Shown here: piece after piece, positions 45,373 to 60,374 of the stretch
Numbering within the stretch: the stretch's first letter is position 1
How the letters are laid out: every line of letters starts with the position of its first letter
Source: an uncultured Flavobacteriales bacterium
GTDB taxonomy: Bacteria > Bacteroidota > Bacteroidia > Flavobacteriales_D > Crocinitomicaceae
Length of the DNA: 64,000 nt
Direction of reading: 5' to 3'
Assembly (NCBI GenBank): GCA_903945495.1
Contig: CAJAVU010000062.1
Span: forward strand, 1-64,000
The notes under the pieces: generated by a model
Told to the model about the DNA's origin: nothing
The model's database searches: none
Seen by the model: the letters and a program-made list of their open reading frames with translations, nothing else
Program-made: the position numbers and the translations under genes

Positions 45373-47913
45373 ATGGGGTCAATGATGATTTATGTGCCAA
45401 TTGTAATGGCAATAATTGGTCTACTTTTTATGTGGATTAAAAGATCTTGGGTTTTAAAACAAGACGCAGGTGATGGAAAAATGAAAGAAATTTCAGATTA
45501 CATCTACGAAGGTGCGCTTGCATTTTTGAAAGCTGAGTATCGCTTATTAGCAATTTTCGTTGTTGGAGCGAGTGCTGTTTTAGCTGGTATTTCGTTTATC
45601 GTACCAACTACGCACATCTTAATTGTAGTTGCATTTATTTTCGGTGCATTCTTTTCAGCGTTGGCTGGAAATATGGGGATGAAAATTGCTACTAAAACAA
45701 ATGTTAGAACAACGCAAGCTGCTCGTACAAGTTTGCCACAAGCATTGAAAGTTTCTTTTGGTGGTGGTACTGTAATGGGATTGGGAGTTGCTGGTTTAGC
45801 AGTTTTAGGTTTAACAGCATTCTTCATTATCTTCTTCCAAATCTTCATGGGAGGTAAATGGGGTCCAGACGGAACAGATAAAATGACAATCGTTCTTGAA
45901 ACATTAGCTGGATTCTCTTTAGGAGCTGAATCAATTGCATTATTTGCACGTGTTGGTGGTGGTATTTATACGAAAGCTGCTGACGTTGGTGCTGACTTAG
46001 TTGGTAAAGTTGAAGCTGGAATTCCAGAGGATGATCCACGTAACCCTGCTACAATTGCAGATAACGTTGGAGATAACGTAGGTGACGTTGCAGGTATGGG
46101 CGCGGATTTATTCGGTTCGTATGTTGCGACAGTATTAGCAGCGATGGTTCTTGGTAACTATGTAATTAAAGACATGGGTGGTAAAATCGAAGACATTTTT
46201 GGTGGAATCGGTCCTATCTTATTACCAATGGCAATTGCTGGTTTCGGAATTTTGTTCTCAATCGTTGGAACAATGTTGGTGAAAATCACGAGCAACGAAG
46301 CGAAAGAAAAACAAGTTCAACGTGCATTAAACATCGGAAACTGGGTTTCTATTATTTTAACAGCAATATCTTGTTTCATTTTGGTTAAATGGATGTTGCC
46401 AGCAAATATGGAAATGAAGTTTTTTGGTGAAAAAGTTTTACAAAACATACCTTCAATGAATGTTTTCTACGCCACGCTAATAGGTTTGTTTGTTGGTGGG
46501 GCAATTTCATCTGTAACTGAATACTACACAGGATTGGGTACAAAACCAGTATTAAAAATCGTTCAAAAATCTTCAACAGGAGCAGGAACAAACGTTATCG
46601 CTGGTTTAGCAACTGGAATGATTTCTACATTCCCTACTGTTCTCTTATTTGCTGCTGCGATTTGGTCTACTTATGCATTAGCAGGATTCTACGGTGTTGC
46701 ATTGGCTGCTTCTGCAATGATGGCTACAACAGCTATGCAATTAGCAATCGATGCTTTCGGACCAATTTCTGATAACGCTGGTGGGATCGCTGAAATGAGT
46801 GAATTACCAAAAGAAGTTCGTACACGTACAGATATTTTGGATTCAGTTGGTAACACAACTGCTGCAACAGGTAAAGGATTCGCAATCGCTTCTGCTGCCT
46901 TGACATCGTTAGCATTGTTTGCTGCTTATGTAACATTTACTGGTATTGATGGAATTAACATCTTTAAAGCGCCAGTATTAGCAATGTTGTTTGTTGGTGG
47001 TATGATTCCAGTTGTATTCTCTGCATTAGCAATGAATTCAGTTGGTAAAGCTGCAATGGACATGGTATATGAGGTTCGTCGTCAGTTCAAAGAAATTCCA
47101 GGTATTATGGAAGGAACTGGTAAACCAGAATACGGTAAATGTGTGGAGATTTCTACGAAAGCAGCGTTACGCGAAATGATGTTGCCTGGAATCTTAACAA
47201 TCGGTTTCCCAATTGCTATTGTTTTGTTAGGTAAATTGGTTTACAGTACAGACAATCAATTGATCGCTGAAATGTTGGGTGGTTATATGGCAGGTGTAAC
47301 AGTATCAGGTGTTCTTTGGGCAGTGTTCCAAAACAATGCAGGTGGTGCTTGGGATAACGCTAAAAAATCATTCGAAGCAGGTGTTGAAATTAATGGTGAA
47401 ATGACGTACAAAGGTTCTGATGCTCACAAAGCTGCAGTAACTGGAGATACAGTTGGAGATCCATTCAAAGATACTTCAGGTCCTTCAATGAACATCTTAA
47501 TCAAATTGACATGTTTAATTGGTTTGGTTATCGCTCCTATCTTAGGAAATGGTCATGGAACTGAAGATAAAGCTAAACCAGCTTGTTGCACAGAAATGAG
47601 TAAAGATGGTAAATCTTGTCATGGAGAAGCTGCTTCTTGTGATCACCACAAAAAAGGCGAAACAATGATCGGGAAATGTGACATGTCAAAATGCGCTACA
47701 ATGTCGAAAGACGAATGTGCTAAGATGTGTGATTCTTTAGGTTGTTCAGCTGAAGAAAAAGAAATGTGTTTAGCACACTACGGAAAAGATGGTAAATTCA
47801 TCGGTGGTGGTAAATGCGAAAAAGAAGGAGCTTGTTGTGCTGATAAAAAAGCATGTAAAGATCCATCAAAATGCAAAGACAAAGCAAAATGTGACGGTGC
47901 CTGCAAGCACTAA
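45373..47913 (+). CDS. hppA: K+-dependent membrane pyrophosphatase with Cys-rich tail
   Basis: 846 residues. Residues 1-725 are a membrane-bound ion-pumping pyrophosphatase with about 16 helices, which uses pyrophosphate to pump cations. Substrate motifs DVGADLVGKVE (about 205-215), EDDPRNPA and ADNVGDNVGD are intact. Ala497 in GNTTAA marks the K+-dependent class. TM6 reads LFGSY (Gly248) where Na+ pumps have Glu, while Glu186 lies in TM5 (GAESIAL), a pattern I recall for flavobacterial H+ pumps; so H+ transport is more likely than Na+. Residues 726-846 form an unusual soluble tail with 17 Cys and 6 His that is not part of the standard enzyme. Start ATG 45373; its own promoter. Confidence 0.93.
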   Translation: MGSMMIYVPIVMAIIGLLFMWIKRSWVLKQDAGDGKMKEISDYIYEGALAFLKAEYRLLAIFVVGASAVLAGISFIVPTTHILIVVAFIFGAFFSALAGNMGMKIATKTNVRTTQAARTSLPQALKVSFGGGTVMGLGVAGLAVLGLTAFFIIFFQIFMGGKWGPDGTDKMTIVLETLAGFSLGAESIALFARVGGGIYTKAADVGADLVGKVEAGIPEDDPRNPATIADNVGDNVGDVAGMGADLFGSYVATVLAAMVLGNYVIKDMGGKIEDIFGGIGPILLPMAIAGFGILFSIVGTMLVKITSNEAKEKQVQRALNIGNWVSIILTAISCFILVKWMLPANMEMKFFGEKVLQNIPSMNVFYATLIGLFVGGAISSVTEYYTGLGTKPVLKIVQKSSTGAGTNVIAGLATGMISTFPTVLLFAAAIWSTYALAGFYGVALAASAMMATTAMQLAIDAFGPISDNAGGIAEMSELPKEVRTRTDILDSVGNTTAATGKGFAIASAALTSLALFAAYVTFTGIDGINIFKAPVLAMLFVGGMIPVVFSALAMNSVGKAAMDMVYEVRRQFKEIPGIMEGTGKPEYGKCVEISTKAALREMMLPGILTIGFPIAIVLLGKLVYSTDNQLIAEMLGGYMAGVTVSGVLWAVFQNNAGGAWDNAKKSFEAGVEINGEMTYKGSDAHKAAVTGDTVGDPFKDTSGPSMNILIKLTCLIGLVIAPILGNGHGTEDKAKPACCTEMSKDGKSCHGEAASCDHHKKGETMIGKCDMSKCATMSKDECAKMCDSLGCSAEEKEMCLAHYGKDGKFIGGGKCEKEGACCADKKACKDPSKCKDKAKCDGACKH

Positions 47914-48013: not shown

Positions 48014-49438
48014 ATGAAAACACTCCTTATCTTTTTTATCGCATTTTTAGGATTCAATGCTGTTTCTCAAATTCAATTTGAAACAACAAAGCACGATTTT
48101 GGCGATTTAGAGCCGTATGACGATCATTTTGTTGACATTGTTGTAAAGAATGTAGGTTCGAAAAAAGAATACCTTTTAAGCGTAAAAAAACCATATGATG
48201 TGGTTTACTTAGTAAATGGTCAATTCATTGATCCAGATAGTTCAATGATTGTGCGTCTACAAGTGAATCCAAAAGCGAAAGGAAGATTCAATTACGAAGT
48301 ACAAATTTTCACGAGTGATAAGAACGAAGCGACAATCGTTAAAATTACGGGCAATATTACAGAATTACCACAGGATAATTTAAGTGCTTTTACGTCTTGC
48401 CCTGATTTCTCTTCTCGTCCAGGAGGAAAAGCAAACAGCTTTGATTTAACTGTTGTCACAGTAGACAAAGATACGAGAAAACCATTGGATCATTCGGAAG
48501 TAACCATGATTCAAAACGGTCAACCTATTTGGGCGAATGAAACCGATAAAAATGGCAAAATCAAAAAGGAATCAACCTTGGGGTTGAGTTATTTCTATGC
48601 AAGGCATGACGGCTACCTTCCAGCTGAATTAGGAGCCTATGTTAATTTTCAGCGCAATTATGTGATTTTGGAATTGGTAAAAGATCCGAAAATTGAAACC
48701 CCGTTACCGAAACCAATTGAACCAGAGCTGGCTCAAAAAGATTCGGTTATTGAACTTGTCGTTGTTGAGCAAGTTGAACAAAATTTGGAAGATCAACTGA
48801 ACAATGAACCAACGACAACAGTGGAAAACTCACCTATTCCGACAGAATTGGCGCAATTGGATAAAAACAATTTTAATGAACAGTATTTCAAACCGATTAA
48901 CGTTGTTTTTGTATTGGATGTTTCTGCCTCGATGAAGCAAGTTGATAAAATTGAATTGATGAAGTTTTCATTGTTTCAATTAACGCAAATGTTGCGACCA
49001 CAAGATAAAATGGGAATTGTAACGTATGCCACAGAAGCAATAGTGTTGCTGCCTCCAACTTCTGGATCAGATAAGGAGAAAATCAATAAAGAAGTTGAAG
49101 AATTGAAAGCTTCAGGATTGACTGCAGGAGGAGCAGGAATAAAATTGGGTTATAAGCAGTGTTTAAAAGGCTATTTGGATGATGGGGTAAATCAAATCAT
49201 CGTAATTACAGATGGGGCATTTAACCGCAGTTCCGATGATTACAAGAAATTTATTAAAAAGTATAAGCGAAAAGGAATTCAAATGTCGGTGGTTGGAATT
49301 AAGAATAAACCAATGGATGAGGATGAAATGAAGGAAGCTGCAGAGTTGGGAGGAGGGCGTTACATTCCAATTTTTAAATTGGCGGATGCGCAGAACAACT
49401 TGAAGGAAGAGATACGTTTTATAACCTTTAGAGAGTAA
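48014..49438 (+). CDS. Secreted protein with vWA domain
   Basis: 474 residues with a signal peptide (1-19, ending FNAVSQ). Residues about 22-120 look like a DUF1573-type beta domain (FETTKHDFGDLEPYDDHF). A middle beta-sandwich (about 145-235) contains VTVDKDTRKPLDHSEVTM, followed by a Glu/Pro-rich linker. A von Willebrand A domain (about 295-474) has the metal-binding DxSxS as Asp302, Ser304, Ser306 in VLDVSASM, a second-site Thr in ASGLTAGGAG, and ITDGAF. It is probably periplasmic or surface-exposed and binds a partner through Mg2+. I see no T9SS C-terminal domain. Confidence 0.82.
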   Translation: MKTLLIFFIAFLGFNAVSQIQFETTKHDFGDLEPYDDHFVDIVVKNVGSKKEYLLSVKKPYDVVYLVNGQFIDPDSSMIVRLQVNPKAKGRFNYEVQIFTSDKNEATIVKITGNITELPQDNLSAFTSCPDFSSRPGGKANSFDLTVVTVDKDTRKPLDHSEVTMIQNGQPIWANETDKNGKIKKESTLGLSYFYARHDGYLPAELGAYVNFQRNYVILELVKDPKIETPLPKPIEPELAQKDSVIELVVVEQVEQNLEDQLNNEPTTTVENSPIPTELAQLDKNNFNEQYFKPINVVFVLDVSASMKQVDKIELMKFSLFQLTQMLRPQDKMGIVTYATEAIVLLPPTSGSDKEKINKEVEELKASGLTAGGAGIKLGYKQCLKGYLDDGVNQIIVITDGAFNRSSDDYKKFIKKYKRKGIQMSVVGIKNKPMDEDEMKEAAELGGGRYIPIFKLADAQNNLKEEIRFITFRE

Positions 49439-49805: not shown

Positions 49806-50210
49806 ATGAATATAATGAAAGCTGTTGTCGTAGAGGATTTCAAATTAATCGCCACTATTTGGGAAACACTTCTCAAGGATTTGGGGTTTGAGGAAGTTCA
49901 TGTTTTTCACCATGCAGATGGAGTTAAAGAGGGCATTTTAGATATTAAGCCAGATATTGTATTCATGGATGTAAATCTTCCTGGTTCAAGGAGCGGTTTA
50001 GATATCACTGAAGAAGTGATTAAAGTAAATTCAGACATCAAAATAATGATGCTTACAATTCACACAGATCCATCATATATTCAACGCGCATTCGCGATTG
50101 GAGCAAAAGGATTTGTGACAAAAAATTCCCCAATATCAGAAATTAAAGATGCTGTTCAAGCAATCATTGAAGGGAAAACGTATATGTGTAAGGAAATTGG
50201 TGAAATCTAA
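49806..50210 (+). CDS. Stand-alone NarL-like receiver protein
   Basis: 134 residues, a CheY-type receiver only. Phospho-acceptor Asp55 is in VFMDVNLPG, acidic pocket Glu10-Asp11, and Lys in GFVTKNSP. The sequence up to IIEGKTYMC is like NarL-family receivers, but the protein then ends where a helix-turn-helix would begin, and no such domain follows in any frame before the next gene. Output by protein contact, or use as a phosphate relay or sink, is inferred. HisKA_3 kinases of the type that normally pair with NarL regulators lie 4-7 kb downstream on the other strand. ATG 49815 is an alternative start. Confidence 0.85.
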   Translation: MNIMKAVVVEDFKLIATIWETLLKDLGFEEVHVFHHADGVKEGILDIKPDIVFMDVNLPGSRSGLDITEEVIKVNSDIKIMMLTIHTDPSYIQRAFAIGAKGFVTKNSPISEIKDAVQAIIEGKTYMCKEIGEI

Positions 50211-50216
50211 TAGCAA

Positions 50217-50624
50217 TTAAGCTACACTTTCAAGAATAGGACGCACAACCTGATACAACTTTTCTTCATCCCAAGGCTTGGAAATAAATTGATCTAGATG
50301 TTTTTCATCACTTAATTCTTGCACAATTAAATCATTCGCTTGCCCCGAAAGCATGACACATTTGATATATGGATATTTTTCTTTAATCGATCGAATTAAT
50401 TGCGCACCATTTAATTTTGGCATTTGGTAATCAACAACAATGATTAAAATTTCAATTTGATTATCCAATAATTCGTTCAAATTTTCAAGAACAGTTGTAG
50501 GATCTGAATAACATTCCAAGAGGGTTGTTTTCGGTTCAATGATTTTATTCAATTGAAACGATAGCATTTGTAGGATGAACGGATCATCATCAACACAAAC
50601 AACGGCATACTTTACATTATCCAT
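50217..50624 (-). CDS. Stand-alone receiver protein
   Basis: 135 residues, receiver only. Acidic pocket VDDDP (11-15), phospho-acceptor Asp65 in VVDYQMPKLNG, and Lys in FISKPWDEEKL. The KPWDEEKL ending is typical of receivers found with HD-GYP proteins or hybrid kinases. The ATG is 4 bases from a perfect -7 element (50629-50636). It lies downstream of the 1038-residue kinase gene on the same strand and may be its target. Confidence 0.88.
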   Translation of the reverse strand: MDNVKYAVVCVDDDPFILQMLSFQLNKIIEPKTTLLECYSDPTTVLENLNELLDNQIEILIIVVDYQMPKLNGAQLIRSIKEKYPYIKCVMLSGQANDLIVQELSDEKHLDQFISKPWDEEKLYQVVRPILESVA

Positions 50625-50628
50625 TTGA

Positions 50629-50636
50629 CAAAAATA
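50629..50636 (-). promoter_or_regulatory. -7 promoter element of receiver gene, 4 bases before ATG
   Basis: Minus strand TATTTTTG (perfect TAnnTTTG), then TCAA, then ATG at 50624. It means the receiver can be expressed apart from the kinase gene upstream. Confidence 0.5.
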
Positions 50637-50712
50637 AGGGAAAAAAATTAGAAAATCTAATAATAATCAGCTTTGTGATGAATCAAACGATTGTGTATCA
50701 ATCGCGTGTATT

Positions 50713-53700
50713 TTATTTATAAAAAGTAATTGTAAAACGCGTTGAATTTGGGATTGAGGTGACATGTATTTTGGCATGGTGATCTTCAATAACATTTTGA
50801 ACAATACTTAATCCTAATCCTGTGCCATTCGACTTCGATTTGGTGGTATAGAATTTAGTGAACATGTTTTGTAAAACATCATCTGGGATAACGTCGCCAT
50901 CATTTTCAATCGAGATTTCATAGCTTTTCTCTGTCTCCTTTGATTCGATAATTAATTTACCATATCCAGAAATTGCTTCAATGGCATTTTTAATCAAATT
51001 CGACCAAAGTTGATAGAGTTTTATTTCGTACCCTTCAATAGTGATTGTTGAATCAACATTGAATTGTAACTCTACTTTCGAATTAATTTCGTAATTAAAG
51101 ACATTCAGTACCGTGGCGATATTATCTTTTAAATTGACAGGACCTTTTGTTGAATGTTGATCAAAACGTACGAAGGTGCGTAGATTTTTAACTACCTGAC
51201 TCGCCTTGTCACTTGCAATTAATATGGTGTCTATAAATGTTCGAGTAGTTTGAATATGATAAATCAAATTCAAGAAATCAAAAGGATTCGGAGATTGAAG
51301 AATTTTATTAATTACCTCTGTCTCATTAATTGATATTCGTGCTTTTACTAAATTGCTTGCAAGTGTTTGAACATCAAAAGTTGTATCGGGATAATTTAAT
51401 CTAATATATTCTTCTATAACTGCAGCTTCTTTGCGTGACTGAATTCCTCCAATGAATAATTCAATATTGTTTTCAACTGCTCGATTACATGCAAAATGCA
51501 ACTGTTCAATTGTCGATTTTTCGATAATCGATTTAAATAAATTTTCGAGGGTGTAACGAATACTTTCTGCACCAACTTTAATAGACCCCAATGGAGTGTT
51601 TAGATCATGTGCAATCCCTGCAGAAATTTCACCAATCATCGCAAGTTTTTCTTGATCGGTTAATAGTCTGGATAGTTCTGTATTTTTTTGTGTTTTCTCA
51701 ATTACTTCTTTTTCAAGATTTAGATTGATTTGACGGATTTGCTCCTTTGAAGATTCAATTTCATGAATATGATCACGTCGAATATAGACATTTACAAGCA
51801 TTTCAGCGAAGATTGTAAGAATGCGCTTATCTTGTTCAGAGTACGTGTAATTGTTGATCACAGAGTCAAATCCAATGAACCCGATACAAATTCCTTCTTT
51901 CATCAAAGGAATGGCTAATAAACTTTTAATGTCTTGTACTTCCAAAAGTTCCCTTAACTGACCAACAGGTAAATCAGCAACTTCAGGAATATCCATTGGC
52001 TCTCCTTTAAAATGCTTTTCTATCCATAACGGCATATCAGAAAAAGGAACGTTTTGGAGATTGTCAATTTGTGGGGTGATGCCTTCTCTTGTCCACTCAT
52101 AAAGATTCGAGCTTGTTTGCTTAATACGAGCATAGTCAAAAATGTATGAACGATCGGCGTTTACAAACTGTCCAATATCTTTTAACGATTGATTGATAGC
52201 ATCTTCAATATCCTCAATTGGCGCATTGATAAATTTGGTTGCAATATTCATAATCAAGTTTTGTAATTTAACTTGATTTTCTAATTGGATTTCATTGTTT
52301 TTTGCCAATGAGATATTTTGCCGAATTGACAAAAATGATTCAATGTCGCCATCCGCATTTAGAATTGGGTAAATTATTGTTTTCACCCAATAGAAGCTTC
52401 CGTCTTTTGCTTTATTTTTTACATCTGCACTCCATATTTTTTTATCCAACATGGTGTCCCAAGCCTCTTGCCAAAATTCTTTGGGATGATAATCTGAAGC
52501 AACAATTTTATGGGTTTTGCCAATTAGCTCTTCTTCACTGAATTGTGAAATTTTACAAAATTGGTCATTTACCATTGTGATAATGCCGTGAGAATCCGTA
52601 AACGAAACTAATGAACTTGCATTAATTGCATTGGTAATTTGTTGGAGATAGCGATTTTTATCCTCCAATTTTCTTTCAGCTTCTTTACGTTCTGATATGT
52701 CACGTGATGATGCAATGACATAACCTTCACCATTAATGGTTTGATAACGTACACTTACCTCAACAGGAATTAGTTGTTTTGTTAGTTGATTAATGTTTTT
52801 CCCTTCAAGAATTAATACACCTTTTTCCTTTATTTCAGTTAAATGATTTAGCCAATCCTCTTCTGTTTTGAATACTGATTCAAAATCGAAAACGGTATAT
52901 TTTTCTATTTCATTTTGTTCTATACCAAGTCGATGGGAAGCAGATTCATTGATGTAAATTAGCTGTCCTTTCTCATTACTCACTTGCATACCATCCGTGG
53001 AATGATTTAAAAAACTTTCAAGTAACCTTAATTTTCTATTTGCTTCTTGAACGTGCTCTTCACTTTTTTTAGCTTTTAATTCTGCTTTTTTAACGGGAGA
53101 GATATCTATCCCATATCCAATAACGTATTTAAGCTCATCATTTTCATCAAAAATTGGTGACATTTTTCTGAAAATTGTCTGATTATCCTCATTCGGAAGT
53201 ATATAATTATCCTCCCATTCAAGAGATCTTTTAGATTGAACTATTTCGTTAAATATCGCTCGTCTTTCATCTGCTATTCTTGTATCAATTTGCTTTAATT
53301 TGCAATAGTCATAATCCGTTTTCCCAAACATAAAATTTCGAATCTCAGCATTTTTTATTCCATGTTTATTCACGAATAAGTAACGATGTTCTGTGTCAAA
53401 AACTGCTAAATCTGAAGGTATATTTTCTAAGATAGATGTGAAAAAATCTTTCTGAAATTCAACTTCTTTACGAATTGCTTTTTCTTTTTTTAGTTCAAAT
53501 TTCAATTGTTGAATGTCCTCATCTGTAACTTTTGACAAATTGAAATAATACAACTTTTCGTTTTGGAAGTATTTTACCTGTCCGGTAAGATCAATCGATT
53601 CATCATTTAGTTGAACACTCAAGTTGTTAAACACAACGAATGACGCGAATTTTTGAGATTTGTGTTCGTTTGAGAATAAGTTGAAAATGGGTTGGTGAAT

Positions 53701-53829
53701 AAATTGCTCTGGATAATTTGAACCGACAGCTAGGATTTTTCCTTCATGATTCGTCACTAAATTGTATGGATACAAATTTTGACATAAGTCATTCAGAATT
53801 TCAATTAATGAGGGTTCGTTTTGTGCCAT
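50713..53829 (-). CDS. Large PAS/GAF histidine kinase with inserted helical region
   Basis: 1038 residues from ATG 53829; a TTG at 53877 would add 16 residues not resembling a protein start. It has no membrane segment. At least three PAS domains follow one another (about 115-245, 255-375, 380-500; for example GYGIDISPVKKAE and SISQFSEEELIGKTH), then a GAF domain (about 530-690: SLLAIPLMKEGICIGFIGFD), a coiled coil, and the kinase core. The phospho-acceptor His is in AGIAHDLNTPLGSIKVG (about 741). About 100 extra residues separate the two dimerisation helices (the second contains SQVVKNLRTFVRFDQ). ATPase boxes NAIEAISG and GTGLGLSIV are intact. Signal unknown, probably cytoplasmic. Confidence 0.88.
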   Translation of the reverse strand: MAQNEPSLIEILNDLCQNLYPYNLVTNHEGKILAVGSNYPEQFIHQPIFNLFSNEHKSQKFASFVVFNNLSVQLNDESIDLTGQVKYFQNEKLYYFNLSKVTDEDIQQLKFELKKEKAIRKEVEFQKDFFTSILENIPSDLAVFDTEHRYLFVNKHGIKNAEIRNFMFGKTDYDYCKLKQIDTRIADERRAIFNEIVQSKRSLEWEDNYILPNEDNQTIFRKMSPIFDENDELKYVIGYGIDISPVKKAELKAKKSEEHVQEANRKLRLLESFLNHSTDGMQVSNEKGQLIYINESASHRLGIEQNEIEKYTVFDFESVFKTEEDWLNHLTEIKEKGVLILEGKNINQLTKQLIPVEVSVRYQTINGEGYVIASSRDISERKEAERKLEDKNRYLQQITNAINASSLVSFTDSHGIITMVNDQFCKISQFSEEELIGKTHKIVASDYHPKEFWQEAWDTMLDKKIWSADVKNKAKDGSFYWVKTIIYPILNADGDIESFLSIRQNISLAKNNEIQLENQVKLQNLIMNIATKFINAPIEDIEDAINQSLKDIGQFVNADRSYIFDYARIKQTSSNLYEWTREGITPQIDNLQNVPFSDMPLWIEKHFKGEPMDIPEVADLPVGQLRELLEVQDIKSLLAIPLMKEGICIGFIGFDSVINNYTYSEQDKRILTIFAEMLVNVYIRRDHIHEIESSKEQIRQINLNLEKEVIEKTQKNTELSRLLTDQEKLAMIGEISAGIAHDLNTPLGSIKVGAESIRYTLENLFKSIIEKSTIEQLHFACNRAVENNIELFIGGIQSRKEAAVIEEYIRLNYPDTTFDVQTLASNLVKARISINETEVINKILQSPNPFDFLNLIYHIQTTRTFIDTILIASDKASQVVKNLRTFVRFDQHSTKGPVNLKDNIATVLNVFNYEINSKVELQFNVDSTITIEGYEIKLYQLWSNLIKNAIEAISGYGKLIIESKETEKSYEISIENDGDVIPDDVLQNMFTKFYTTKSKSNGTGLGLSIVQNVIEDHHAKIHVTSIPNSTRFTITFYK

Positions 53830-53920
53830 TCCAATTAACCAAATTATACAATCAGCGTATTGCTTATTACTAAACAAACAATATATGAAAAATCAATTAA
53901 TTCTAGGCAACAAGTTTCAA

Positions 53921-55291
53921 TTAATTGTTCTTTACTTTATTCATTATAAGTTTCAATTCTGTTCCTTCGCCTTGTTTACTGTCTAATTCTCCAAGAAGTT
54001 TACCCAATTTGATACGATGTTCAAGGTTTTGAATACCTAAACCTTTTTTCGCTTCATTTTTATCGAAACCAACACCGTTATCCTTCACAAGAACAACTAC
54101 CTTGTCATCCTGGCGGGAAACGATGATTTCCATATCTTGAGCTTGTGAATGCTTGAGTGAATTATTGACAAACTCTTGAATGATGCGGTATAAATTAAAT
54201 TTATCGGTAAGGGCAAAATCGTCTTCAACAATATCGTTTTCAATGTTCAGTCTAAAATGCACTTTTTCTAATTGATTAACGCGGTGAACCAAATTTTCCA
54301 ACGCTAACAAGAAACCTTTTTCTAATTCTGGTGGTAAAAGGGAATAAGAAACAGCTTTCAATTCTTTAATTGAATTGTTAATCATATCTGAAAAATTCTT
54401 CCCTAGGTCTTTTTGCTCATCAGAGAAATTGAACATATTGAACCATAAACTCATTAAAACTAGATTTTGAGCCAGACCATCATGTAATTCCATGGCAATC
54501 TTTTTCTTTTCACTTTCTTGAGCTTCGTTAATAACTTTATATTTTTGTTCTTCAAAAGCAATTTCTTCGCTACGGTCAATGATTAAGCAGATGTAGGAAT
54601 CTTTCTTATTGGATAATTTATTACCAATGATTTCAACGTGAATTTGTAAATCACTGGCTGTTTTTTGAATCAAATGACGTGTAAAAGAATGCTTGTTTGT
54701 GTCGATTTTAATCGTTTTTTTCTTGTCATAATTCAAGCTTTGTAATTCTCTACCGATTAATAGACGCTTTTCAAAACCATAAATATCTTTTGCTGCATTA
54801 TTGACCAATTTGATAACCAAATTTGGCCCTTCAACAGAAAACATAGGTAAAGGAGATTGTTCAAATACATCTCGAAATTGTTTTTCCGATTTTTGAATGC
54901 GGTCTAATAAATCTTTACGTTCAAAACTATATTCAATTGTTTTAAGTAAAACCTTATTATTTAAATCGCTTTTTAGGATGTAATCTTGAGCGCCATGTTT
55001 GACAATATCCAAGGCCATGTTTTGATCATCCATACCGGATAAAATAATAATGGCTGATTTAGGGAAAATTTCAATAACGCGTTCAAATGTTTCTTTCCCA
55101 TTTGAATCAACGATGTTTAAGTCGAGTAGGATTACATCAGGTACAAAAAATTTAGAAAATTCTTCCACTTCCATGATTGATCTAGCGTGTTGAACATGGC
55201 TAGAAGAGTAATTGTTGGACGTCAACTGAAAGTAAATCAGCTGGGTGAAAAAATGGTCGTCCTCAACAATTAAAACTTTAATGTTTTTCAT
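53921..55291 (-). CDS. Receiver-PAS-HisKA_3 histidine kinase
   Basis: 456 residues. An N-terminal receiver domain (1-125) has Asp57 in VILLDLNIVDSNG. A PAS domain (about 140-250) has SPLPMFSVEGPNLVIKLVN. The HisKA_3 dimerisation domain carries His270 in AMELHDGLAQNLV, and the ATPase domain has NSLKHSQAQDM and VKDNGVGFD. The receiver at the N-terminus means this kinase can be a target of another kinase. It lies 43 bases upstream of the large kinase gene's non-coding edge and 86 bases downstream of a second HisKA_3 kinase gene, all on the minus strand. Confidence 0.92.
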   Translation of the reverse strand: MKNIKVLIVEDDHFFTQLIYFQLTSNNYSSSHVQHARSIMEVEEFSKFFVPDVILLDLNIVDSNGKETFERVIEIFPKSAIIILSGMDDQNMALDIVKHGAQDYILKSDLNNKVLLKTIEYSFERKDLLDRIQKSEKQFRDVFEQSPLPMFSVEGPNLVIKLVNNAAKDIYGFEKRLLIGRELQSLNYDKKKTIKIDTNKHSFTRHLIQKTASDLQIHVEIIGNKLSNKKDSYICLIIDRSEEIAFEEQKYKVINEAQESEKKKIAMELHDGLAQNLVLMSLWFNMFNFSDEQKDLGKNFSDMINNSIKELKAVSYSLLPPELEKGFLLALENLVHRVNQLEKVHFRLNIENDIVEDDFALTDKFNLYRIIQEFVNNSLKHSQAQDMEIIVSRQDDKVVVLVKDNGVGFDKNEAKKGLGIQNLEHRIKLGKLLGELDSKQGEGTELKLIMNKVKNN

Positions 55292-55377
55292 GATAGTGGT
55301 GAATTATGATATTAAATTATTGATATTATTTGAAGAAAACAAATAAATTTTGAAAATGTTTGTGAGTGGTTGTTTCA

Positions 55378-56799
55378 TTATATTTCTAATTTAAGTGTTG
55401 TTCCTTTCGATAATTCGCTTGAAATTGAAAGATTAACATTGGATATTTTTGCCCGTTTTTGCATATTGTTTAGCCCAAATCCTTGACGAATTAAGTGGGA
55501 ATCAAATCCTTTACCATTATCTGAAACCAGAATGTATATTTTACCCAAACGCGTGCGAATAGAACAATTGATTTCAGAACATTCGGCATGCTTCATTGAA
55601 TTACTGATGAATTCTTGAATAATTCTGAAAACATTGTATGTTTTTTCTGTGTCTAACTTGTACGAAATCTTTTTTGTCATCGCAAGGTTAAACGTGATCG
55701 CCGATAATGAATTCATTTTACTGAACAATACTTCTATTGCTTCTTGCCATCCATTATTTAATTCAGGTGGCGAAAGATTGTAACACAGCATGCGCGTCTG
55801 ATCCAAACTGTCTTTGATCAAGCGTTTGCAATGTCCATAAACAGTTGGGTCAACTTCTTTGTTTTCCTCGATTTGTCCGAGATATAGATTCAGTGCAACT
55901 AAGTATTGCGCTAAACCGTCGTGTAATTCCATTGAAAAACGAGCACGTTCAAAATCAAGTGTTTCGTTGATAAGAACAGCTTTTTGAATGTCATTTAATT
56001 TGCGGGATGTAATATCTTCTAAATGACCATGCCAAAGGTTAGTGTCTCCGGCTTCATACGAATTATCAGCAATGATCTGGAACCATTTAATGGTGTCTGC
56101 AGTGGTCATGAAGCGAAATTCAACTGACCAAATTGTACCTTGTCTACGCGCGTTTTCCATTCCTGATAGGAATCTTCCTAAATCATCAGGATGAATGCGC
56201 GATAAGAAATAAGAAAGACGTTCATCTAATAACTGTCTTCTCAACGGTCGAACCACTTTCTCGAAATTGTCACCAATGTGCTTAAAACGTAAACGACGCT
56301 TTGGTAATAATTCGAAAACAAATGGTACAATAGGAAGCGGAGGAAGATTTAAATTCTCTTGTTGTTGAGGAACGCTGGCAATTTTTTGTTTGATAAACGA
56401 GAAAATATAGCCGTTCGTTTCGTTCGGTTCAACACACAAATGAATTTGATAGTCTTTGGTTGAATAGACATCTTCAATCTCGATGTATTCGTGTTTTAAA
56501 AGCGCTTCACACAGCTGAGCAAACGAAGCAGTGTCTAATAAATCTTTACTAAGATCAATTACACTTTCTTGTTCGCGTCTAACTTTAAAACGCTGTTTAA
56601 AAATCTCTTTAAATGATGAATTGAGATAGAGAATACGAAATTCTTTATCTGCTACAAGTATACCGTCGCTAAGCTTATCAAAAAGCTTGAATAGGTCTAG
56701 GCCGTCCCTCTTGTTTCCCCCTGAAATCTTCAATCGAGTAGAAGTACCTTCTGACGATTGTTCCAAATCAGACTGAAACGGTGATACAAATTTTCGCAT
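55378..56799 (-). CDS. PAS-HisKA_3 histidine kinase
   Basis: 473 residues, cytoplasmic. One PAS domain (about 35-140: DGILVADKEFRILYLNSSF) and a second PAS-like region with PAC segment (about 160-265: SRIHPDDLGRFLSGMENARR, WHGHLEDITSRK). The HisKA_3 domain has His293 in SMELHDGLAQYLV, and the ATPase domain has NSMKHAECSEI and VSDNGKGFDS. The C-terminal 230 residues are closely similar to those of the kinase at 53921-55291, suggesting duplication. No NarL-type regulator with a DNA-binding domain is in the window. Confidence 0.9.
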   Translation of the reverse strand: MRKFVSPFQSDLEQSSEGTSTRLKISGGNKRDGLDLFKLFDKLSDGILVADKEFRILYLNSSFKEIFKQRFKVRREQESVIDLSKDLLDTASFAQLCEALLKHEYIEIEDVYSTKDYQIHLCVEPNETNGYIFSFIKQKIASVPQQQENLNLPPLPIVPFVFELLPKRRLRFKHIGDNFEKVVRPLRRQLLDERLSYFLSRIHPDDLGRFLSGMENARRQGTIWSVEFRFMTTADTIKWFQIIADNSYEAGDTNLWHGHLEDITSRKLNDIQKAVLINETLDFERARFSMELHDGLAQYLVALNLYLGQIEENKEVDPTVYGHCKRLIKDSLDQTRMLCYNLSPPELNNGWQEAIEVLFSKMNSLSAITFNLAMTKKISYKLDTEKTYNVFRIIQEFISNSMKHAECSEINCSIRTRLGKIYILVSDNGKGFDSHLIRQGFGLNNMQKRAKISNVNLSISSELSKGTTLKLEI

Positions 56800-56938: not shown

Positions 56939-57610
56939 TTATCTGTTCTTTGTAATGAAAACCTTGTCTTTATCAAGTTGACTTTCCAAAACAGTGAAGA
57001 ACTCATCTAATTGTTTTTCCTTCAAACAGTCAACCGGAAAAGATAGTTGCAATCCTTTAATGTAATCGAAGAACATGGATTGTTGATGAATTGTTACTTT
57101 ACGTAAACCACTAAAATATACAAGGTTCACATCGCGATCTGCGGTGATAACTGCTTTACTTGTGATTCCAGTTCTAAAGCGTTTTCCGCGGGTGCCTACG
57201 ATTGTAAAAATTAGATTATCCAATGTGCAGAAAGCATAACCGATTGCCGGCATCCAAGCTTCTGGTGAAACAATATACAATGTGATAGCAATGAACAACA
57301 TCACAAAACCTTCCAAGAAATTGTAAGTGCGTACACGTTTAATGCGTTCTTCGCCCATTGGTTGGTTCCATTTGAATTTTTCAATCTGATTCACTAAACG
57401 CATGCCCATCCATCGACGAATACTTCGACGAACATTGACAATTAAAATGAATAATCCCAAACCTAATAAAATCTCAAAACGATACGGCAATTGAGCACCT
57501 GTCGTTCTGATTTTAAACATGTCGATGGAAATGTCAAACCCAATCAATATTGTCATCAACATTGTTGGGAATAACACAAAAAGCAATACTGCGTTAATGA
57601 ATCTATTCAT
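56939..57610 (-). CDS. Membrane protein of unknown function
   Basis: 223 residues. Hydrophobic segments occur at about 5-25, 45-62, 103-121 and possibly 123-140; a soluble C-terminal domain (about 145-223) contains SGLRKVTIHQQSMFFDYIKGL. The family is not recognised. It overlaps the DUF349 gene by 8 bases and is the last gene of the operon with the PfkB kinase and the DUF349 protein. Confidence 0.65.
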   Translation of the reverse strand: MNRFINAVLLFVLFPTMLMTILIGFDISIDMFKIRTTGAQLPYRFEILLGLGLFILIVNVRRSIRRWMGMRLVNQIEKFKWNQPMGEERIKRVRTYNFLEGFVMLFIAITLYIVSPEAWMPAIGYAFCTLDNLIFTIVGTRGKRFRTGITSKAVITADRDVNLVYFSGLRKVTIHQQSMFFDYIKGLQLSFPVDCLKEKQLDEFFTVLESQLDKDKVFITKNR

Positions 57611-59309
57611 TTGGTATCATCTTCAATTTACGGATCAAGGCATCAATTTTTGCTTTTGATGCATTGATTTTTCCTTCTACTTCTTTACGCAACAAATCAG
57701 CTCCTTTTGATTTCGCGAAGAAACCAAGGTTGTTTTCGTATTGTAACATATCGTTTTTCAAGTGTTCAATTTGCTGACGAATATCTGCTTTTTCTTTTGC
57801 AAACGCACGACTCGCATCCGGCGATGAAGCCAACGTTTCCATGCGTGCTTCGAACATCACTTTTTCTTTTTCAGCACCTTCCAATTTCAATTTGCCGTAA
57901 TGCGCATCAATTGCTGTTTTGTATTGATTGTAGATCGCATCTTTGTCTTTCATTGGAACTTTACCAGCAGCATTAAATGAATTCGTAAATTCTCGTAAGT
58001 CAGCCAAAGCTTGTTTTTTGTCTGTCGGAAGAACGTATGTTTCAATTGCAGCAATAATCGTCTGTTTCGCATGCAAATTCGTTTCCAATTGCTTGTCTTG
58101 CTCTTCGAAGTGTTTCGTACGTGCGTTAAAGAATGCATCACACGCTCCACGGAAATCAGACCACAATTTTTGCTCTAATTTTTGCCCTGCGTGACCAACG
58201 GTTTTCCATTGTTTTTGCAATTGCACTAATTTGTCAGCTGTTGTTTTCCAATCAGTTGATTCTTTCAAAGCTACTGCTTGATCGATAATGCGTTGTTTCG
58301 CTTCAGCAATTTTGTTGAATTTCTCTTGAATCGTTCCAAAGAATTCTTTTTTCGAAGCGAAGAATGCATCACAATGTGCTCTGAATTCTTGCCAAACTTC
58401 TTCGTTTTCTTTGCGTGGTCCAAAGCCAATGGTTTTCCATTTTTCTTGTAAAGCCAACAATTTTTCTGTTGCCTCGTCCCACATTTTTACGCTAGAATTT
58501 TCAGTTTTTGTTGCAACAACTGCTGCAGCTTCCGCTAACAATTCTTTTTTCTTTGCAAGATTTTCAAGTAGGGTTGAACGGCGCTCATCGTAAAATGCGT
58601 TGATACGATCGTAAACCGTGCGCACATTTTCCCAATATTTCGCTTTCAGGTTTTCCCATTCATCATTGATAACTGGTCCAATTCCTTCCCACTCGTTTTG
58701 AAGTGTTTTCAACGCTGCTTCAACTTCACGAATTGATTCAGTGTTTTTCAACGCTTCCAATTGTGTAATCACATCCAATTTTAATTGGTAGTTGCGCTTC
58801 AAATCGTGCTCTTTCAATTCACGGTAAATCTTCATGTTGTAGAAGAAATCTTCCAACAAACGCGAATATTCGTGTTGAATTTCGTCGCGTTTATCGCGTG
58901 CAATATCACCTACTTTTTTCCATGCTTCATGGATTTCTTTGTAAGTCGTAAATGCCGCGCCAATATTCTCTTCTTTCTCAATCACGTCTTTCAAGCGATT
59001 GATCAAGTTGCGTTTTTGTTTTAAATTTTCTGATTCTATGGCGTTACGCGCATCCACTTGTTCTTTGCGACGCTCACGGTAAATGTTGTACAATTCAAAA
59101 AACGCATCTTTCACAGGCTTAAAGTCTTTCGGCTCATATTCTTCACCTTGCACTTGTGCTTCCAAAGCAGCCACTTGGTCTTTGCGTTCTTCTTCTAAAA
59201 TATAATCGTCGAAACGTACTTTCAATTCGTTCACTTCACGATTTACCGCTAATGCATCTTCGTTTTGCGCTAACGTTTTTAATTCTTCAATTAAAGCATT
59301 GTTCTCCAT
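57603..59309 (-). CDS. DUF349 repeat protein
   Basis: 568 residues, highly charged and almost all helical. At least five DUF349-type repeats of about 70 residues are visible, each with a W-x2-(I/V)G core: EAWKKVGDI, NEWEGIGPV, EKWKTIGFGPRKENEEVW, KQWKTVGHAGQKLEQKLW and a weaker fifth. The C-terminus (about 490-568) has a coiled coil. DUF349 proteins are of unknown function. It lies 18 bases after the PfkB kinase gene and overlaps the next gene by 8 bases. Confidence 0.85.
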   Translation of the reverse strand: MENNALIEELKTLAQNEDALAVNREVNELKVRFDDYILEEERKDQVAALEAQVQGEEYEPKDFKPVKDAFFELYNIYRERRKEQVDARNAIESENLKQKRNLINRLKDVIEKEENIGAAFTTYKEIHEAWKKVGDIARDKRDEIQHEYSRLLEDFFYNMKIYRELKEHDLKRNYQLKLDVITQLEALKNTESIREVEAALKTLQNEWEGIGPVINDEWENLKAKYWENVRTVYDRINAFYDERRSTLLENLAKKKELLAEAAAVVATKTENSSVKMWDEATEKLLALQEKWKTIGFGPRKENEEVWQEFRAHCDAFFASKKEFFGTIQEKFNKIAEAKQRIIDQAVALKESTDWKTTADKLVQLQKQWKTVGHAGQKLEQKLWSDFRGACDAFFNARTKHFEEQDKQLETNLHAKQTIIAAIETYVLPTDKKQALADLREFTNSFNAAGKVPMKDKDAIYNQYKTAIDAHYGKLKLEGAEKEKVMFEARMETLASSPDASRAFAKEKADIRQQIEHLKNDMLQYENNLGFFAKSKGADLLRKEVEGKINASKAKIDALIRKLKMIPNE

Positions 59310-59327: not shown

Positions 59328-60257
59328 TTATCCTACAGTTTGTACCATTTCAAAATTTGTCAACGCAACGAACTCTTCAATTCGTGCATCAACTTCTTCA
59401 CGTGTAATATCCGTTAAGCGTTCTGTACCAAATTTCTCAACACAGAAAGACGCTAATGCTGAACCAGCGATGATTGCACGTTTCATATTGTCAAAAGAAG
59501 CGTCATCCGTCGCAGCAATGTAACCCATGAATCCACCAGCAAATGTATCACCTGCTCCAGTTGGATCAAACACTTCTTCCAACGGTAAAGCTGGAGCGAA
59601 GAATACATTTTCTCCGTGGAACAATAACGCTCCGTGCTCACCTTTTTTGATGATCAAATATTTTGGTCCCATCGCACGAATCACTTTCGACGCTTTCACC
59701 AATGAATATTCTCCTGATAATTGACGCGCTTCTTCATCGTTGATGATTAACACATCAACTAGTGCCATTGTTTTCTTTAATTCTTCTAAAGCGATTTCCA
59801 TCCAGAAATTCATCGTGTCCATTGCGATTAATTTAGGACGCGTTTCCAAACGTTCGATTACACTTCTTTGAACCTGTGGGCTTAAATTCCCCAACATTAA
59901 ATACTCAACTCCTTGATAGCTTGCAGGAATAATTGGATCAAAATGTTCCAATACGTTCAATTCCGTAACTAAGGTATCGCGTGAATTCATATCGTTGTGG
60001 TAACGACCTGACCAGAAGAATGTTTTTTCTCCTTGTTTGATCTGAAGTCCTTCCAAATCAACTCCTTTCGAAGCTAAGGTATCCAACATTTCTTGTGGAA
60101 AATCTTCTCCCACAACTGCAACGATTTTTTGGTCTTTTGTATAAAATGACGAAGATAAAGCGATGTATGTACCAGCTCCACCAATAATTTTATCGGTTTT
60201 ACCAAATGGCGTCTCAATCGCATCAAAGGCAACACTGCCCACAGTAAGTAAACTCAT
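59328..60257 (-). CDS. PfkB-family sugar or nucleoside kinase
   Basis: 309 residues from ATG 60257; an upstream in-frame start at 60332 adds a Cys-rich stretch unlike the family. The N-terminal motif is KIIGGAGTYIA and the C-terminal PfkB signature DPTGAGDTFAGGF contains the catalytic Asp. Substrate cannot be read from sequence (ribokinase, adenosine kinase or sugar kinase are possible). A perfect -7 element (60277-60284) precedes it. First gene of the operon with DUF349 and membrane protein genes. Confidence 0.9.
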   Translation of the reverse strand: MSLLTVGSVAFDAIETPFGKTDKIIGGAGTYIALSSSFYTKDQKIVAVVGEDFPQEMLDTLASKGVDLEGLQIKQGEKTFFWSGRYHNDMNSRDTLVTELNVLEHFDPIIPASYQGVEYLMLGNLSPQVQRSVIERLETRPKLIAMDTMNFWMEIALEELKKTMALVDVLIINDEEARQLSGEYSLVKASKVIRAMGPKYLIIKKGEHGALLFHGENVFFAPALPLEEVFDPTGAGDTFAGGFMGYIAATDDASFDNMKRAIIAGSALASFCVEKFGTERLTDITREEVDARIEEFVALTNFEMVQTVG

Positions 60258-60276
60258 TGTATGATTTTTAAGAGAA

Positions 60277-60284
60277 CAAAGATA
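60277..60284 (-). promoter_or_regulatory. -7 promoter element of PfkB operon
   Basis: Minus strand TATCTTTG, perfect TAnnTTTG, 19 bases before ATG 60257. It confirms that the start is 60257, since an upstream start at 60332 would lie before this promoter. Confidence 0.55.
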
Positions 60285-60374
60285 ACACAAAGAACACGCA
60301 ACACCGAAGTAGCATGCGTGATTTTTACACATTTTAAGTGAAAATAGTCGATTGATTATTCTATTTACTTGAAA

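Follow-up and report, generated by a model that had tools for sequence, protein, structure and literature searches.

A cluster of histidine kinases and stand-alone receivers in a Crocinitomicaceae genome, with a NarL-type regulator beyond the window as its most likely output

The window analysed here is a stretch of 64,000 nucleotides (G000:C62:1-64000) from an uncultured Flavobacteriales bacterium of the Crocinitomicaceae, whose draft genome (G000) amounts to 3.64 Mb in 114 contigs. It carries an island of five signalling genes encoding two HisKA_3 histidine kinases (RecPasHK3 and PasPasHK3), a large PAS/GAF kinase (BigHK), and two stand-alone receivers, for which RecA and RecB are working names only, RecA being unrelated in meaning to the recombinase. 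The most likely output of this system is a full-length NarL-type regulator encoded beyond the window, and the step from the missing helix-turn-helix (HTH) in the cluster to the lack of any DNA output is not supported. With moderate confidence, we propose a branched two-component network in which NarL would provide the output in trans and RecA would compete with it as a receiver, BigHK perhaps being the kinase that feeds both RecB and the receiver of RecPasHK3. The observations comprise the parts and their intact catalytic motifs, the conservation and co-occurrence of these parts, and, for RecA and NarL, a common origin and a shared helix α1; the wiring itself we infer.

A NarL-type regulator as the probable output in trans

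A Pfam scan of the window proteins (E <= 0.01) bore out the first-pass annotation, a reading of the DNA letters alone, in its description of five signalling proteins devoid of a DNA-binding output: a pair of HisKA_3 kinases, a single HisKA kinase with PAS/GAF domains and two lone receivers were recognized, and neither GerE nor any other DNA-binding domain was detected in any of the five. For want of a DNA-binding regulator, that annotation had suggested protein contact as a possible output of the group. The argument from absence is not supported, as the same genome encodes a full-length NarL (G000:C95:25415-26053; 213 amino acids (aa), Response_reg and GerE domains), whose neighbours are another HisKA_3 kinase, the third of this kind, and a receiver that is sister to RecA. 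This sister, C95rec (C95:24457-24840), is the second HTH-less receiver of the genome, is 51% identical to RecA, and is flanked by full-length NarL and by the kinase in question, C95HK (PAS-HisKA_3, 1030 aa). A cognate full-length NarL is absent beside the kinases of the window and present both beside the C95 kinase and in relatives. The whole genome contains eight HisKA_3 matches (seven over the cut-off), 47 receiver matches and 12 GerE matches. Since a GerE match was found within about 2 kb of five of the eight HisKA_3 matches, the exceptions being the window's own pair and a single match on contig C59, most such kinases of this genome have a NarL nearby, and the minority that do not could draw on a DNA-binding output in trans.

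The distribution of NarL was followed in a comparison set of 149 relatives, with 26 genus genomes within the analysis, most of them many-contig drafts, so that gene absences are soft. A NarL orthologue occurs in 23 of these 26 genomes, with one good copy each (a further match in G023 is 36% identical), and no match was obtained at E <= 1e-30 in G013, G014 and G018. The same three genomes gave no match to RecPasHK3 (E <= 1e-25) or PasPasHK3 (E <= 1e-20). Overall, a full-length HisKA_3 relative of either kinase was present in 22 of the 23 genomes with NarL versus none of the three genomes without it (Fisher p 0.0015, not corrected for kinship), full-length relatives of PasPasHK3 being found in 20/26 genus genomes. 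Among the 149 genomes, in which the best 11 or 20 candidates were scored per genome, a NarL match accompanied a RecPasHK3-like kinase match in 20 of 21 cases versus 17 of the 128 genomes with no such kinase match (both at E <= 1e-40; not corrected for kinship); within these 21, the match of G034 is confined to the kinase core, and G039 is the genome with no NarL match.

In the gene maps, 18 of the 23 NarL genomes have the regulator at 6 kb or less from such a HisKA_3 kinase. By hand tally, NarL is in or at the island in 15/23 and elsewhere in eight (G000, G008, G025, G016, G005, G002, G011, G012), the placings in G021, G004, G019 and G001 being soft through contig ends. In the window species (G000:C95) and its sister, NarL occupies a chromosomal stretch separate from the island, inside which it is found in most relatives. 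The first-pass annotation had stated that a full-length NarL elsewhere in the genome, phosphorylated preferentially by these kinases, would overturn its view; the regulator elsewhere and its link to such kinases in 18/23 maps, that is the genomic half of that statement, are what was found. Taken together, these data make it probable that the HisKA_3 kinases PasPasHK3, RecPasHK3 and C95HK control one single-copy NarL-type DNA-binding regulator. A promoter search for perfect five-base dyads as NarL-binding motifs returned only shared A/T runs and no regulon.

A closed phosphorelay with protein contact through RecA and/or RecB as its output, and no DNA-binding output, has in its favour the absence of a DNA-binding domain from the five genes, a second cluster of the same genome (on C59) that likewise has no adjoining GerE gene, and two precedents drawn, as are all papers cited here, from excerpts of the source: the single-domain regulator EpsW, which activates EpsZ and thus has a protein-contact output (PMC12802240), and the ExsF/AgR clusters, which in the excerpt have no DNA-binding member (PMC3899027). 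It is nonetheless unlikely, as NarL is tied to these kinases by neighbourhood and co-occurrence in relatives and is present in the window's own genome, and no candidate target (motility, type IX secretion system (T9SS), polysaccharide) is conserved in the island. The motility or T9SS control evoked in the first-pass annotation finds no footing in the island flanks, where no such gene was seen (HppA, VWA, an unnamed membrane protein, DUF349, PfkB and AsmA-like products), T9SS and motility not having been searched genome-wide. What survives of its phosphorelay is a multi-kinase, multi-receiver network, which is plausible, the four-protein BphP1-AgR-ExsG-ExsF cluster, made up of similar parts, being branched in this manner (PMC3899027, excerpt); what is not supported is a necessary output through protein contact. 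The RecB branch may have such an output.

RecA, an HTH-less twin of NarL

Response_reg is the only Pfam domain of RecA (75.8 bits) as well as of RecB. The nearest NCBIfam models of RecA are UvrY/SirA/GacA- and MctR-type regulators, all far under their whole-protein cut-offs. The earlier observation that the NarL-like receiver at 49806 ends before the HTH was confirmed by alignment, RecA stopping where NarL enters its linker and HTH. Searches with RecA in the 149 relatives identified 19 HTH-less relatives, distributed in 16 of the 26 genus genomes and G034 (G000 and G008 have two apiece, G034 and a further 14 genus genomes a single one), and an alignment of RecA with 18 other HTH-less receivers and six NarL showed that all of the HTH-less ones end where NarL enters the linker or a few residues later. 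In the tree, RecA-type receivers group in a single clade (100/99), to which a G066 receiver is sister (98/98), and together these share a clade with the 26 NarL receivers used (98/99), the tree being compatible with a RecA position either inside or beside NarL. Because of this common clade, RecA is an old duplicate of the C95-type NarL that lacks the HTH.

Several features indicate that the RecA gene is not broken. Its AlphaFold2 model, built from a two-sequence alignment, is a complete five-strand receiver with a predicted local distance difference test (pLDDT) score of 89, and this complete predicted fold, combined with the end point in the alignment, argues that RecA is not a fragment. Comparison with the sister species gave a ratio of nonsynonymous to synonymous substitution rates (dN/dS) of 0.067, a sign of purifying selection; the ratios of BigHK, C95HK and C95rec were unusable, dS being saturated. 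The acid pair ED, D55, T84 and K106 of receivers are retained in the RecA alignment, with residue roles that we take to be the usual ones. A pseudogene or truncation was ruled out by the common end point in 19 relatives, purifying selection and the complete fold, and a NarL relic with its HTH left downstream by the position of the RecB stop codon, 6 bp away, which fills the space.

No genome has RecA without NarL, and 7/23 genomes with NarL gave no RecA match (Fisher p 0.046). Five genomes (G024, G007, G015, G003 and G010) have the two genes on the same strand with 39-40 bp between them. In another genus of the family, the HTH-less receiver of G066, sister to the RecA clade, adjoins a receiver-first kinase on contig C25 (L099:9158-10884), the NarL of this genome being on contig C23.

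A docking helix common to RecA and NarL

In DesK-DesR, a HisKA_3-NarL pair, the kinase grips its regulator at two places of the receiver, helix α1 and the loop β5α5 (PMC5231405, excerpt). Helix α1 of RecA spans residues 13-25 in the AlphaFold2 model. The 47 receivers of G000 were compared with one another (1081 pairs) over an 11-column segment chosen after the sequences had been seen, and the α1 identity of RecA and NarL (0.64) was tied in the top 5, the rest of their domain ranking 159. Sliding the 11 columns in steps of three served as a control: the best rank of this pair (7) was at α1, with further good segments in β3 (ranks 27-29) and β5 (34). When averaged over relatives, α1 identity was 0.35 between RecA and NarL versus 0.10-0.12 between RecA and other NarL-type receivers. 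We tentatively suggest that RecA and C95rec could dock on the same kinases as NarL and take phosphate without binding DNA, thereby setting a threshold, draining the kinases or holding them back.

RecA might otherwise be a partner and not a competitor of NarL, receiver heterodimers blocking or tuning NarL dimerisation on DNA. Their common origin and the same-strand genes 39-40 bp apart in five genomes would suit such a role, as would the N-terminal piece of DevR, whose interference with DevR is discussed in the excerpt of PMC3338549, where the same is cited for Spo0A. We hold this possibility to be of low probability, as RecA and NarL are not neighbours in the window's species and have diverged outside α1, the catalytic β3 region and β5, with an identity of 0.16 in α4, 0.27 in α5 and 0.35 in α1; because α4 and α5 have diverged more than α1, a shared docking surface fits better than a shared dimer face.

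BigHK, RecB and the receiver of RecPasHK3

Both HisKA_3 kinases have HATPase_c and an intact H box (ELHDG), and RecPasHK3 and PasPasHK3 score 26.2 and 33.3 bits, respectively, against a HisKA_3 cut-off of 24. As noted in the first-pass annotation, one of them has its own receiver, the Pfam architecture of RecPasHK3 being Response_reg-PAS-HisKA_3-HATPase_c. BigHK combines PAS (three stretches), GAF, HisKA and HATPase_c domains. Its HisKA match covers 27 residues and is barely above the cut-off, and its H box (AHDLNTP) is intact; an H box is present in 31/31 kinases aligned, H, N and G boxes being aligned in the 31 relatives. The ATPase domain of BigHK begins about 175 residues past the HisKA match, and the phosphoacceptor region seems to contain a long insert, likewise in relatives.

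In relatives, RecB adjoins BigHK, and BigHK itself directly adjoins RecPasHK3 in nine genomes (G000, G008, G021, G006, G009, G022, G020, G017, G002). The receiver comparison described above ranked the α1 identity of RecB and the RecPasHK3 receiver (0.45) in a tie within the top 23 of 1081 pairs, the rest of the domain ranking 1007; the sliding control placed the best rank (24) at α1 and none better than 132 outside this peak. The FQL end of α1 is common to both receivers in 11/12 near orthologues. By analogy with BphP1, which phosphorylates AgR and the receiver of ExsG, itself the kinase of ExsF (PMC3899027, excerpt), BigHK may tentatively be proposed to phosphorylate RecB and the N-terminal receiver of RecPasHK3, which would tune the HisKA_3 branch from above.

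H-NOX genes are present in 19/26 genus genomes, and paralogues of BigHK and RecB are located behind an H-NOX gene in 12 of them (G007, G017, G024, G002, G011, G015, G010, G003, G004, G020, G019, G021). These observations raise the possibility that BigHK and RecB form a pair of their own, left over from a gas-sensing module with H-NOX and unrelated to the HisKA_3-NarL branch. It is compatible with G013, which has a BigHK-like gene in the island and a RecB relative outside it, and with G018, which has a BigHK-like gene, neither having such a HisKA_3 kinase. This explanation is possible and somewhat doubtful, in that the window RecB groups with island copies in the tree, apart from most H-NOX-linked ones (95/91; the root serves display alone, and a single H-NOX-linked row is nested among them), BigHK directly adjoins RecPasHK3 in the nine genomes listed, the α1 helices of RecB and the RecPasHK3 receiver are alike, and the H-NOX of the window's own genome has another kinase. 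This single H-NOX match of G000 is on contig C4, in a locus (L100:3518-8985) with a 1034-aa kinase of another type and receivers of its own. Two more specific scenarios were ruled out: H-NOX as the local sensor of BigHK, since the island has no H-NOX and that of the genome has another kinase, and RecB as an H-NOX-type receiver moved into the island, given its grouping with island copies. H-NOX loci with a kinase and a lone receiver behind were recorded at L295, L296, L298, L307, L308, L335-L339, L343 and L346; in G000 and G008 the kinase and receiver are of another type.

Conservation and variability of the island

The first-pass annotation had proposed examining whether the cluster is conserved as a unit in related genomes, and gene maps show that it is a conserved signalling unit, with the same families recurring across the genus. 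Islands of relatives keep the boundaries of the window, being enclosed by the HppA-like and VWA genes at one end and by W569-DUF349-PfkB-AsmA at the opposite end. Inside these boundaries the gene order varies: RecPasHK3-NarL-PasPasHK3-W569 in G017, with the same three-gene order in G001 and G019, where contigs break; VWA-NarL-RecB-BigHK-RecPasHK3 in G009, G022 and G020; and W569-PasPasHK3-RecA-NarL in G024, G007 and G015. The space between the VWA gene and W569 is a variable insertion site, empty in G014 (L198) and occupied by a lone BigHK-like gene of 1262 aa in G013 (L197) and G018 (L196), the RecB relative of G013 being outside the island. An unremarkable clustering, whereby kinases and receivers of unrelated pathways gather at a variable site, could draw on this empty site, on the lone BigHK-like genes and on the rearrangements seen elsewhere. 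We judge it very unlikely, as the same families recur together genus-wide and NarL tracks the kinases in gain, in loss and to a new site.

In addition to the softness of gene absences and the choice of the α1 segment after the sequences were seen, a number of observations weigh against the branched network. Concerning the link with NarL, this regulator stands alone in G002, G011 and G012, and G023 (88% complete), where NarL adjoins W569, has no HisKA_3 kinase of the type considered here at the thresholds used. In other Flavobacteriales, a RecPasHK3 orthologue directly follows PfkB-DUF349-W569 (L204, L206-L208), or DUF349-W569 at a contig end (L209), and neither NarL nor BigHK was found beside it in the stretches read; because these genera have W569-RecPasHK3 without NarL in those stretches, the RecPasHK3 kinase may predate its tie to NarL. 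RecA itself is dispensable, judging from the 7/23 NarL genomes that gave no match. As for α1, NarL changed in the G024 group while RecA did not, and the likeness of the two helices therefore looks retained rather than co-evolving. Finally, FQL also occurs in RecB of most H-NOX-linked paralogues and in RecPasHK3 orthologues with no adjoining BigHK (L204, L206, L207), and the step from BigHK to the RecPasHK3 receiver is weak because the motif is found also where RecB and RecPasHK3 are not neighbours.

Gene layout and neighbouring genes

Feature coordinates are collected in Table 1. Five genes form a run on the minus strand, in the order W569-PasPasHK3-RecPasHK3-BigHK-RecB, with gaps of 139, 86, 43 or 91 (by BigHK start) and 88 bp. 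For BigHK, a TTG start at 53877 (1054 aa) is possible, and the ATG start listed in Table 1 matches the sister-species alignment. RecA converges on RecB, their stop codons being 6 bp apart.

Table 1. Features of the signalling island and its boundaries (window positions)
Feature	Position	Strand	Description	Evidence
RecA	49806-50210	+	134 aa; stand-alone NarL-type receiver, HTH-less paralogue of C95 NarL	Open reading frame (ORF), Pfam, alignment, tree, model
RecB	50217-50624	-	135 aa; stand-alone receiver of other class; adjoins BigHK in relatives	ORF, Pfam, neighbours, tree
BigHK	50713-53829	-	Soluble PAS/GAF-HisKA-HATPase kinase, 1038 aa from ATG at 53829	ORF, Pfam, alignment
RecPasHK3	53921-55291	-	456 aa; N-terminal receiver-PAS-HisKA_3-HATPase_c kinase	ORF, Pfam
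PasPasHK3	55378-56799	-	473 aa; PAS-PAS-HisKA_3-HATPase_c kinase	ORF, Pfam
W569	56939-57610	-	223-aa membrane protein, no Pfam match; upstream of kinases, same strand	
DUF349 protein	57603-59309	-	Conserved right boundary of island	
PfkB-family kinase	59328-60332	-	Conserved right boundary of island	
HppA-like protein	45373-47913	+	846 aa; left boundary	
DUF1573-VWA protein	48014-49438	+	Left boundary	Pfam

The first gene of the left boundary, outside the coverage of the Pfam scan, encodes a product that we take to be HppA-like; its C-terminal tail is rich in Cys and His, and relatives of 841-886 aa are alike over most of the length. The function of W569 could not be approached by fold: its AlphaFold2 model (pLDDT 77) had no match in the PDB at E <= 0.001, the best E being 1.2. 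W569 is an old neighbour of RecPasHK3: its orthologues directly precede a receiver-HisKA_3 kinase at L204:9325-9990, L206:5883-6542, L207:5623-6282, L208:9342-10010 and L209:928-1596, and the two genes touch or overlap in L207-L209. In the C59 cluster of G000 (L088:8219-14606), a kinase of receiver-PAS-HisKA_3 architecture is accompanied by a receiver of 140 aa and by two other kinase-like ORFs, with no adjoining GerE gene.

Comparison with known systems

As described in the excerpt, the BphP1-AgR-ExsG-ExsF cluster of NT-26 and Agrobacterium resembles the island in having a large soluble kinase, two lone receivers, a receiver-first kinase and no DNA-binding member (PMC3899027). The two differ in that ExsG is an HWE kinase with no PAS domain, whereas RecPasHK3 has HisKA_3 and PAS (Pfam); BigHK has PAS and GAF and no phytochrome-specific Pfam domain at E <= 0.01 that would mark it as a bacteriophytochrome. 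The window also adds a second HisKA_3 kinase, and NarL is linked to the system in relatives. With DesK-DesR and NarX-NarL, the island has in common the kinase family and, in most relatives, a nearby full-length NarL, but differs in that a minimum of three kinases, all from a single subfamily, are found with one NarL encoded in trans and with HTH-less NarL-type receivers, one or two in number. The H-NOX modules are alike in having close BigHK and RecB paralogues directly behind H-NOX in 12 genus genomes and differ from the island, which has no H-NOX gene.

Phosphate sinks provide a further comparison. In S. meliloti, CheY1 is reportedly the sink. Sink or sequestering receivers can create a threshold, according to excerpts of PMC4214558 and PMC10368727, and in the S. 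meliloti CheA-CheY2-CheY1 system two receivers, one of them with an output, compete for one kinase (PMC4214558). There, both receivers are CheY proteins of chemotaxis, whereas the putative sink considered here would be the HTH-less twin of a transcription factor. A literature search with most subscription journals outside its scope yielded no description of this cluster or of an HTH-less twin kept beside its NarL, and no match joining Crocinitomicaceae, two-component and response regulator.

Biological significance

Known two-component biology is not overturned by these results: the arrangement varies on kinds of system already described, and the conserved HTH-less twin is the part of specialist interest. 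A more far-reaching proposal, rather doubtful as a whole, is that NarL and its vertically inherited HTH-less twin form a pair fed by several HisKA_3 kinases, in which the twin would serve as a threshold decoy while the BigHK tier would tune the RecPasHK3 receiver. If true, a decoy derived from duplication of the regulator itself, genus-wide and sometimes in the same operon, would show cleanly, in a natural setting, how threshold control can evolve. The island also illustrates how the reading of a single locus can make a system look output-less, the regulator having split off in this species pair while being still traceable. Should RecA compete with NarL, the genus would offer a natural series on decoy thresholds, with members that have RecA, members that lack it, and members in which the twin is in the same operon or distant.

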